A stretch of DNA of 64,000 bases from contig CP114179.1 of the NCBI GenBank assembly GCA_039555135.1, positions 3,162,001 to 3,226,000 of the forward strand, read 5' to 3'. This document shows positions 11,392-53,094 of the stretch, one piece after another; positions within the stretch are counted from its first letter, which is position 1, and each line of letters begins with the position of its first letter. A program made the position numbers and the translations under genes. The notes beneath the pieces were generated by a model, which saw only the letters and a program-made list of their open reading frames with translations, did no database searches and was not told the origin of the DNA. The DNA comes from Phycisphaeraceae bacterium D3-23 (GTDB lineage Bacteria > Planctomycetota > Phycisphaerae > Phycisphaerales > Phycisphaeraceae).

Positions 11392-11443
11392 GGCGGCCTG
11401 CTTTCTTGCCGCTCATACGCATCCCCGAAAGAACACGCGCTCT

Positions 11444-11549
11444 GGGGTGCCACACAACTGGCCTGTCCGCAGGCCTGCTGTGTGTCGAGATGATCAATGG
11501 CATCGGGTTGTCGCACACAGCAGCCCTACGGGCAGTTGTGTGGCACCCC
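11444..11549. repeat. Inverted pair of REP-like elements, family C
   Basis: A 41-nt element at 11444-11484 faces a 36-nt copy at 11514-11549. Each can fold on itself (CAACTG...CAG-type inner palindrome), and the two can pair with each other. A third copy stands alone at 58375-58408. This fills most of the gap between the convergent genes ending at 11391 and 11714. Confidence 0.8.
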
Positions 11550-11615
11550 GGAAGATACGCGCGCGAATCAACTGGGATGCGGATTAGCGCGGGGGATGCG
11601 GAATCTAAAAGAACA

Positions 11616-25490: not shown

Positions 25491-25587
25491 GTGGGGCGGG
25501 CATCTTGCCCGCCATCGCGGCATCGCCGCGAATACGTTGAGTCAACTCAGGCCTGCGGCCTGATAGCGGGCAGGATGCCCGCTCCAC
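25491..25587. repeat. Inverted pair of REP-like elements, family D
   Basis: A 22-nt element at 25491-25512 (each arm itself palindromic, GCGGGCA...TGCCCGC) faces a near-identical inverted copy at 25566-25587. Together they fill the spacer between the moxR stop and the DUF58 start. Confidence 0.8.
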
Positions 25588-41875: not shown

Positions 41876-41948
41876 GTTTAGCCGTCGCCCAACGGGCGGC
41901 GCGACCAAGCCGACATACCACGCGCCGCCCGATGGGCGACGGCTCAAC
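41876..41948. repeat. Inverted pair of REP-like elements, family B
   Basis: Two 28-nt copies (41876-41903 and 41921-41948) face each other across a 17-nt spacer and can form a long hairpin just after the aldo/keto reductase stop. The rest of the 41845-42071 gap shows nothing else of note except a -10-like TATACT at 42061-42066. Confidence 0.85.
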
Positions 41949-45350: not shown

Positions 45351-45464
45351 TCTCACGCAAAGGCGCAAAGGCGCAATGCGATACAATCAAGTTTATGCTG
45401 CCTGAGCCGGTAGACTCTGTCTGCGTGTAACATCTTTCTTTGCGCCTTAGCGTCTTTGCGTGAG
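45351..45464. repeat. Inverted pair of CGCAAAGG-type repeats, family F
   Basis: A TCTCACGCAAAGGCGCAAAG element at 45351-45375 faces an inverted version at 45438-45464. This ACGCAAAGGCGC motif is widespread in unrelated bacterial genomes. The spacer (about 60 nt) holds a TACAAT near 45381. Confidence 0.75.
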
Positions 45465-45490: not shown

Positions 45491-46780
45491 ATGCCCGCAC
45501 TGACCTACGAGCGACTCCAGCAAGACACCGAGTCCCACGCCCGGCTTGGGCGGGTGACGACGCTGCATGGGGCGTTCGAGACGCCGGCGTTTATGCCGGT
45601 CGGGACGCAGGGGACGGTTAAGGGGCTGACCCCCGATCAGGTGCGCGCGACTGGGGCACAGATCATCCTGGGCAACACGTACCACCTGCTGCTTCGGCCG
45701 GGCAGTGAACTCGTTGCGCAGATGGGCGGGCTGCAGGACTGGACCCGGTGGGGCGGGCCGATGCTCACGGACTCGGGCGGGTTCCAGGTTTTTTCGCTCG
45801 CGGGGATCAACGACATCACCGAGGACGGCGTGCGGTTCAAGAGCCACCTGGACGGCACGATGATCGACCTGACGCCCGAGCGGTCGATGCAGGTGCAGCA
45901 CGAGCTGGGCGCGGACATCATGATGGCGTTTGACGATTGCCCGCCGGCGCAGCACCCGCCGGCGCATCGGTTCTTGCCGAAATCGGACCGCGAACGGCAG
46001 GACGGGATCCCACCCGCCCTCGACGACCGCGCGTACGCCGCGCGTATCAAGCTCGCCAACGAGCGGACCCTGCGCTGGCTCGACCGTTGCGTGGCGTATC
46101 ACAAGCAGTCCGGGCGCGATGCGTTTCAGTCGCTGTTCCCCATCGTGCAGGGCGGGACGGACCTCGATCAGCGCGACTGGTGCGTCGAGCGGATCGCCCA
46201 GCACGACGCCCCGGGCTACGCGATCGGTGGGGTCGCGGTGGGGGAGGGGCCGGGCGAGATCCGCCGGGTCGTGGAGCACACGGCCCCGAAGCTGCCGGGC
46301 GATCGGCCGCGCTACCTGATGGGGGTGGGCTACGAGCGGGATATCGTCGCCGCCGTCCGGGCCGGGGTCGATATGTTCGATTGCGTCCTGCCCACGCGCA
46401 ACGGCCGGCGGGGCGTCGCGTTCACCCCGACGGGCCCGCTGCGGCTGAAGAACGCCAGTTTCCGGGAGGACCCCAGGCCGATCCAGGAAGGGTGTGATTG
46501 TGTCTGTTGTAGGGGCCAAGGGGCCGAGGGGCCATGGGGCCAAGTGGGGGGCAGTCACTTGGCCCCTGGGCCCCTTGACCCCTCGGCCCCTTCCCACTTC
46601 TCCCGCTCCTACCTCCGTCACCTGTTCCACGCCGGGGAGCAGCTCGGGCCGGCCCTGGTGAGTCTCCATAACCTCCGGCACTTCCAACGGCTGCTGTTGG
46701 ACATCCGGCGGGCGATCAGGGACAATGCTTGGTCTTTCCTCGCTCGGGATTGGCCGGTCGCGTTTGACGCGATCCCGTAG
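45491..46780 (+). CDS. tgt: Queuine tRNA-ribosyltransferase with an internal 27-residue insert
   Basis: The enzyme swaps guanine 34 for queuine or its precursor in four tRNAs. Active-site and family motifs are present: DSGGFQVFSL, QGG(T)D, GGVAVGE, FDCVLPTRNGR. The zinc site is CDCVCC (C-x-C-x2-C) with its His in SLHNL. Between CCR and HFSRSYLRH, where the family normally has no or one residue, lie 27 extra codons that exactly cover a palindrome (see 46512-46590). The gene stays in frame, so the protein of 429 residues is larger than the usual 370-380. yajC and secDF follow, as in many Gram-negative genomes. Confidence 0.93.
   Translation: MPALTYERLQQDTESHARLGRVTTLHGAFETPAFMPVGTQGTVKGLTPDQVRATGAQIILGNTYHLLLRPGSELVAQMGGLQDWTRWGGPMLTDSGGFQVFSLAGINDITEDGVRFKSHLDGTMIDLTPERSMQVQHELGADIMMAFDDCPPAQHPPAHRFLPKSDRERQDGIPPALDDRAYAARIKLANERTLRWLDRCVAYHKQSGRDAFQSLFPIVQGGTDLDQRDWCVERIAQHDAPGYAIGGVAVGEGPGEIRRVVEHTAPKLPGDRPRYLMGVGYERDIVAAVRAGVDMFDCVLPTRNGRRGVAFTPTGPLRLKNASFREDPRPIQEGCDCVCCRGQGAEGPWGQVGGSHLAPGPLDPSAPSHFSRSYLRHLFHAGEQLGPALVSLHNLRHFQRLLLDIRRAIRDNAWSFLARDWPVAFDAIP
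46512..46590. repeat. Palindromic repeat inserted in frame within tgt
   Basis: Two 35-nt arms (46512-46546 and 46556-46590) pair with about five mismatches across a 9-nt loop. They are built from GGGGCC blocks. The insertion, 81 nt, adds Gly/Pro-rich residues between two zinc ligands. Confidence 0.85.
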
Positions 46781-52992: not shown

Positions 52993-53094
52993 AGGGTGGG
53001 TGCAGCGAGGCCGCGAGCGCAACCCACCACGCGCTGCCCATGGTGGTTGGATTTACACGGTGGGTATCGCTCGCGGACTCGCTCCACCCACCCT
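52993..53094. repeat. Inverted pair of 36-nt REP-like elements, family E
   Basis: A 36-nt element at 52993-53028 faces a near-identical inverted copy at 53059-53094. Each has the core GCGAGG(C/T)CGCGAGCG. They occupy the spacer between rsmJ and the hydrolase gene. Confidence 0.85.

Follow-up and report, generated by a model that had tools for sequence, protein, structure and literature searches.

The tgt gene of Phycisphaeraceae bacterium D3-23 contains an 81-nt palindrome that is read in frame, and this insert is very probably a copy of a dispersed, non-autonomous palindromic element and is read as a disordered loop. The genome (G000 in the comparisons below) is a single contig of 4.62 Mb, and "the window" denotes the whole stretch of 64,000 nucleotides that was analysed. 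The element, as we picture it, would be non-autonomous and about 80-115 bp long, with arms of tandem octamers; it would have entered tgt after the lineage split from its nearest sampled relatives, and its tgt copy would be translated as a disordered loop of 27 residues. Presumably, tgt is translated across the insert in vivo and the enzyme retains its activity.

A palindrome in frame within tgt

The product of tgt was identified as tRNA-guanine transglycosylase (TGT) by PFAM (PF01702, E 1.3e-133) and NCBIfam (TIGR00430, above cut-off). The features of the gene, in window coordinates, are:

45491..46780, + strand: tgt, tRNA-guanine transglycosylase, 429 aa; the ORF stays open across the insert
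46493..46510, + strand: codons of C335, C337 and C340, immediately 5' of the insert; invariant in 32 TGTs
46511..46591, + strand: translated palindromic element, 81 nt or 27 codons (RGQGAEGPWGQVGGSHLAPGPLDPSAP)
46511..46546, + strand: left arm, with octamers GGGGCCNN at 46512, 46520, 46528 and 46536 and AAGTG at its end
46547..46555, + strand: 9-nt loop separating the arms
46556..46591, + strand: right arm, 86% complementary to the left arm
46619..46621, + strand: codon of H377, 3' of the insert; invariant in 32 TGTs

The first base of the element lies directly 3' of the Cys340 codon (46508-46510) and its last base is followed by TCC. Inverted-repeat analysis gave arms of 36 nt, 86% complementary, around a 9-nt loop. 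The sequence-only reading of this DNA had the total of 81 bases and the two pairing arms right, but its interval (46512-46590) was one base too short at either end and its arm length of 35 nt one less than measured. In the alignment of 32 TGTs, the invariant C335, C337, C340 and H377, which we take to be the four zinc ligands of the enzyme, stand on either side of the insert. It thus sits between the third cysteine and the histidine, as had been read from the position of the cysteine ligands and a downstream motif. The RNA of 46500-46602 folds at -73.5 kcal/mol, compared with -51.7 +/- 3.5 in 200 dinucleotide shuffles (z -6.3; 0/200 shuffles as low).

An AlphaFold model of the protein, with the 32 TGTs as alignment input, had a mean pLDDT of 88.3. 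Confidence fell to 59 at residues 341-350 and 45 at 351-360 (below 50 at 351-359), rose to 69 at 361-370 and reached 97 in the next block. Foldseek matched the model to Z. mobilis TGT with a TMt of 0.94, and the titles of matched TGT structures mention mutants at Y330, H333 and W326. Modelled in this way, the insert falls in a low-confidence loop and is best read as a predicted disordered loop upon an intact TGT fold. The region presumably borders the dimer contact.

Five further inverted repeats were seen in the window (11441-11552, 25491-25587, 41876-41948, 45352-45464 and 52993-53094), with arms of 23-36 nt that are 88-93% complementary. One of these is located just 5' of tgt, and the repeat at 25491-25587 looks by eye like a repeat close to the transposase gene at 3886903.

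A family of octamer palindromes dispersed over the genome

A search with window positions 46480-46620 returned 46 matches in the own genome (both strands, many sites counted twice). The pattern GGGGCCNNGGGGCC occurs 49 times in the genome and the same pattern read backwards once, so the repeat is not there by chance. From 36 candidate places we retained and delimited 32 sites of the octamer element, with boundaries placed by hand; 21 are longer than 75 nt and 11 are single arms or short arrays. Four candidate places (258630, 1743203, 3343584 and 3491685) were discarded as chance matches; a GC-rich cluster at 2630384 was set aside as well. The consensus starts as (AGGGGYCN)3-4 AGTG, frequently with TTGCG next, and continues with a loop of varying length and the complementary arm. 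Nineteen of the 21 full-length copies measure 81-114 nt, and the remaining two 132 and 155 nt. A GNAT-like gene (own genome 4396016-4396170, L070) carries palindromes of another octamer (AGTGGCCN) next to a GGGGCC piece.

Flanks and arms were compared in 19 copies, leaving out the composite copies 4396016 and 1819970. No exact flanking (target-site) duplication was found in these 19 copies, nor a fixed foot tetranucleotide; strong conservation (IC 1.53) is confined to the A beside the outer GGGG. The tgt copy begins with GTAG, which is not common to the other copies. The two arms of a copy were no more similar to each other than arms of different copies (p = 0.48), so pairing as such is not being maintained; copying of one arm from the other was also considered and left no signal in this test.

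The sister species G002 has 11 sites of the element. The genome search for further copies of the palindrome that the sequence-only reading had called for thus yielded 32 dispersed sites, and these, the sites in G002 and the empty sites in relatives described below all agree with its suggestion of a mobile repeat. Movement itself, as read from presence and absence among species, is probable; dispersal of the octamer palindromes and their tolerance by host genes are well supported.

Half of the sites are in frame inside genes

Sixteen of the 32 octamer sites lie inside genes, in an open frame and with coding flanks on either side. An automatic codon score had assigned 19 of the 32 sites to the same frame on either side. 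We removed four of these (629407, 989766, 1847276 and 1855588), which have an internal stop or stand at the ORF start, and added tgt. The score misjudged the tgt copy as well as the tgt copy of the relative G010, and homology was therefore used for both. In-frame palindromes in an enzyme core, thought to be rare when the tgt insert was first noticed, are thus common in this genome.

Twelve of the 16 in-frame sites fall in 11 proteins that match PFAM families strongly and are named here from profiles: chorismate synthase (AroC), PriA (two inserts), MutS, LeuS, ValS, RuvB, an SNF2 helicase, a PutA-type proline dehydrogenase/aldehyde dehydrogenase, NadA, RarA (MgsA) and TGT. The inserts of chorismate synthase and the PutA-type protein are short arrays. 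The proteins that hold the remaining four sites gave acetyltransferase matches of weak to moderate strength.

All 11 full-length in-gene copies (a set that excludes composite 4396016) are read in one phase. The used frame on the gene strand is free of stops in 11/11 copies; the second frame has a stop in 1/11 and the third in 9/11. The nine full-length copies outside genes, taken on both strands, have stops in 6, 10 and 12 of 18 per phase, so the used phase is generally the most open one. Copies that keep the frame in surface loops would survive in genes, the rest being purged or left intergenic. A filter of this sort does not by itself account for the use of one phase in 11/11 copies: with open weights of 12:8:6, the chance of all 11 falling in one given phase is about 0.46^11, or 2 in 10,000, a figure for a pattern noticed post hoc in copies of which some are perhaps non-independent.

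Empty sites and unrelated palindromes in relatives

TGT was found in 39 of 41 genomes, and the tgt loop is short in 28 of the 29 relatives that were read. Four genomes of the window's own genus (G001-G004) have no octamer insert in tgt. The one exception, G010, has an unrelated palindrome of GGGTATC heptamers at the same place. The sequence-only reading had advised looking for the empty site in relatives, and nearly all of those read have it; an insert carried by all relatives, which it would have taken as a sign of an ordinary domain, was not found. Its view that the loop tolerates additions agrees with the palindrome in G010 and with the low confidence of the loop in the model. A separate set of 80 named TGT loci, drawn partly from the same genomes, was readable at 72 loci, where the loop from Cys to the RxYxxH motif spans 4-27 residues; inspection of the 25 longest loops by eye did not reveal the insert peptides of the window and G010 TGTs.

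Empty-site comparisons covered five proteins: TGT, NadA, PriA (site 2), RuvB and ValS. NadA lacks the octamer insert in 20/20 relatives and PriA site 2 in 21/21; at the N-terminal ValS site it is missing in the 21 relatives that have letters at this place. In RuvB it is missing in 22/23 relatives and present only in G002. NadA is longer in G008 and G013, with other sequence. The RuvB loop of G013 (L113) is also longer, of other sequence, and to the eye perhaps holds one more palindrome.

In RuvB, G000 and G002 have orthologous copies: each measures 108 nt, 83 of the 108 positions are identical (hand count), and the flanks are 90% and 85% identical. G002 likewise has the short array in the PutA-type gene. 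Since these two copies are common to both species and others are not, some insertions are older than the split and others younger. A further octamer palindrome of G002 (contig C1 near 64222, L303) lies in frame in a gene that by eye resembles queG, another gene of the queuosine pathway.

Site 1 of PriA carries the octamer palindrome in G000 and its apparent decayed relative in G002; G010 has the GGGTATC palindrome there, and the one in G013 is of a third kind, built of GGATTTC-like units. Folding was run on the DNA of all four. The PriA site 1 and tgt loops were thus filled by unrelated palindromes that inserted independently at the same tolerant loops. The GGGTATC palindrome gave 95 matches in G010. 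Eleven G010 loci were inspected (at one of these, L254, the script did not display the element); besides tgt, five copies, the PriA one included, stand in an open frame that is coding on either side.

Origin of the insert

Palindromes could also have grown where they stand, a short G-rich seed expanding by slippage or template switching with no dispersal of copies. Tandem-octamer arms that differ in unit number and carry small indels would suit such growth, as would the missing flanking duplications, the arms of other 7-mers in other genera and the independence of the two arms of one copy. We nevertheless consider local growth unlikely, because the same octamer and the same AGTG(TTGCG)/CACT core recur in the same order at many sites, and the short loops of relatives contain no such seed.

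Selection for a regulatory hairpin or quadruplex, its place in genes being a coincidence, appears more improbable still. Half of the 32 sites do lie outside genes or at a gene edge, and according to the excerpted text of PMC4692102, quadruplexes form in vitro from the G-rich heptameric repeats found in Xanthomonas and Nostoc. A conserved regulatory role is at odds with inserts that are not the same in sister species and with arms that vary independently.

The segment might instead be missing from the protein, through ribosomal bypass or through removal from the mRNA or the protein. The very stable hairpin and the bypassed palindromes of Magnusiomyces mitochondria (excerpts of PMC6649704) speak for this, but removal would relax both the length of the insert and its reading frame, and we found 81 nt, a multiple of three, and 11/11 full-length in-gene copies free of stops; this makes bypass or removal a marginally poorer candidate than the regulatory hairpin. 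Finally, an ordinary lineage-specific TGT loop or domain with its own function, for which the variable loop length might speak, is scarcely credible given that the same DNA also occurs in unrelated genes, is missing from G001-G004 of the same genus and is replaced by an unrelated sequence in G010.

A candidate mover

TnpA_Y1/RAYT transposases are HUH enzymes that act on single-strand DNA and are not known to leave flanking duplications. The octamer element lacks such duplications, which would suit an HUH transposase working in trans, and the genome carries genes of this kind, one of which valS contains in frame. Tentatively, then, the most likely mover would be an HUH transposase of the TnpA_Y1/RAYT group that acts on single-strand DNA in trans.

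A profile search detected three PF01797 genes in the own genome. The octamer element was not found within 1.5 kb of any of the three, the nearest copy being about 2.4 kb away. Across 26 scanned loci (23 different genes), no transposase gene was bordered by the element; the scan returned one copy, which lies within the proline-utilisation gene at a distance of 2.4 kb, and a weak 14-nt match in L271. GGGTATC units were not seen at the four transposase loci of G010. A GGGTCTC-type palindrome stands between a transposase gene and the proline-utilisation gene at L062:3457-3630. That ValS-type transposases move the octamer palindromes is what we infer, and the tests of this link came out negative.

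A transposase embedded in ValS

The valS gene of the own genome, which encodes valyl-tRNA synthetase (ValS), the enzyme that loads tRNA with valine, is located as follows:

L052:3487-7428 (own genome 1597786-1601727), - strand: ValS with three in-frame additions

The additions are an octamer palindrome near the N-terminus, a REP-associated transposase at residues 492-626 and an insert around residues 830-862 (SRDREGA...GPLPDGRGS) that is missing from the other alignment rows. The ORF of 1314 residues reads ValS-transposase-ValS without a stop. Residues 492-626 match the REP-associated tyrosine transposase family NF047646 with 80.7 bits (NCBIfam scan, cut-off 80); they score below the PF01797 cut-off (19.8 vs 23) and were therefore missed by the own-genome PF01797 search. 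An exact 24-nt inverted repeat, GGTGGCACAGGCATCCTGCCTGTG, stands at either end of the transposase insert. Among the matches listed, the own genome did not show another ValS. The ValS loop is short in G001-G004, the genus of the window, so the G000 insertion looks recent.

Transposases are embedded at this same ValS loop in 23 of the 142 readable loops of the order (L278, L279, L286, L294, L299, 15 of L312-L371, L399, L423 and L435). The ValS segment that follows was matched in 148 of 151 genomes of the order (weakly in G043, G050 and G133; three genomes gave no match). The loops comprise sets of 24, 60 and 58 with 5, 15 and 3 positives, and the count leaves out G104 and G107 (no motif) and G125 (loop off the contig). 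Of two groups of 60 loci, the one with the longest frames was read first and the other was fetched later, with 58 read; because these remaining loci were also read, the figure of 23/142 does not come from long frames alone. The ValS loops of G081 and G096 look like REP-only pieces.

Three positives (G058, G062 and G110) are by-eye calls and stand outside the alignment, profile scans and tree. The other 20 embedded transposases all match NF047646 and PF01797 (E <= 0.01), and H97 and H99 of the HxH motif and Y162 are invariant in 20/20. Exact inverted repeats of 18-31 nt were found at the transposase ends in seven of eight cases tested, and one of 10 nt in the eighth. By type, nine of the 23 embedded genes are RAYT-like (type A) and 14 class-3-like (type B, by eye).

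A tree of the 20 embedded and 33 free transposases, the latter drawn from few genomes, placed the embedded ones in two separate clades of 12 (support 100/99) and 8 (99/97), each of which also contains two free genes. Parsimony on the 53 sequences gave four changes, and the well-supported branches require at least two. The closest sequence to a type B embedded gene is another embedded one, the best free match having 43-49% identity, and six of eight type A genes group together (98/97); type A identities include ValS flanks, and the tree was built on trimmed rows. Genus g25 has both types, type A in G028 and type B in G032 and G036.

It is possible, if rather doubtful, that REP-associated HUH transposases live in the valS frame as an internal domain of ValS and scatter in-frame palindromes. 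Residence in valS would give the transposase guaranteed expression and shelter from deletion, much as with inteins but without splicing, and the embedded enzymes would supply the strand-exchange activity that spreads palindromes, the tgt one among them, through housekeeping genes of the order. We found no report of transposases within ValS in the open-licence PMC literature searched.

Comparison with known systems

In-frame palindromes have so far been known mainly from Rickettsia and from scattered REP cases, and here they occur in eleven named core proteins. Unrelated palindromes in the same loops across genera amount to a natural insertion scan for foreign peptide in essential enzymes. In ValS a whole transposase sits within an essential synthetase, in two clades, which makes the use of essential genes as homes by transposons testable; fusions of this kind are easily thrown out as annotation errors.

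The heptamer repeats of Xanthomonas and Nostoc resemble the octamer element in being G-rich tandem units dispersed over the genome; as described in the excerpts of PMC4692102, they are tandem, most of four units, and neither facing arms nor in-frame enzyme inserts are named there. For the TnpA_Y1/REP-associated transposases, we compared the ValS-embedded genes with the portions of PMC6006769 on class 3: 14 of the 23 carry NHVH, W[TA] and YVxxEQ by eye, several deviating at single positions of the signature, and the embedded genes have REP-like inverted repeats at both ends, as there. The same portions report in-frame REP insertions within some transposase genes and state that unexpectedly long transposase proteins were thrown out as gene fusions or annotation errors. 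They do not describe TnpA_Y1 genes inside other genes, whereas here such genes are read within ValS.

Intragenic REPs, according to the excerpted part of PMC3733652, are palindromes in genes, many of which serve DNA replication and repair while some encode tRNA enzymes, and the octamer element likewise occurs in the replication and repair genes PriA, MutS, RuvB and RarA. Unlike REPs, hairpins of 20-40 bp with a GTAG or CGTC foot and with stems given there as 5-13 bp, the octamer element has 36-nt arms and no fixed foot. The REP-like label first given to the tgt insert does not suit an element with arms of this length, no fixed foot and no place at the border of a transposase gene.

The closest parallel is with the Rickettsia palindromic elements (RPE), which the excerpted texts of PMC2229807 and PMC10969869 describe as palindromes of about 100-150 bp that lie between genes and also, in frame, within conserved genes unrelated to one another; they encode a conserved peptide, which was tolerated in the single enzyme reported as tested, gmk. 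Like RPE as portrayed there, the octamer element is a long stem-loop palindrome, somewhat shorter overall (81-114 nt in 19/21 copies), that lies in conserved genes with the reading frame open. Two differences from those accounts are the tandem-octamer arms in a planctomycete host and the other oligomers that other genera carry at the same loops. The tgt element is the same kind of phenomenon as RPE, in another phylum and with another architecture.
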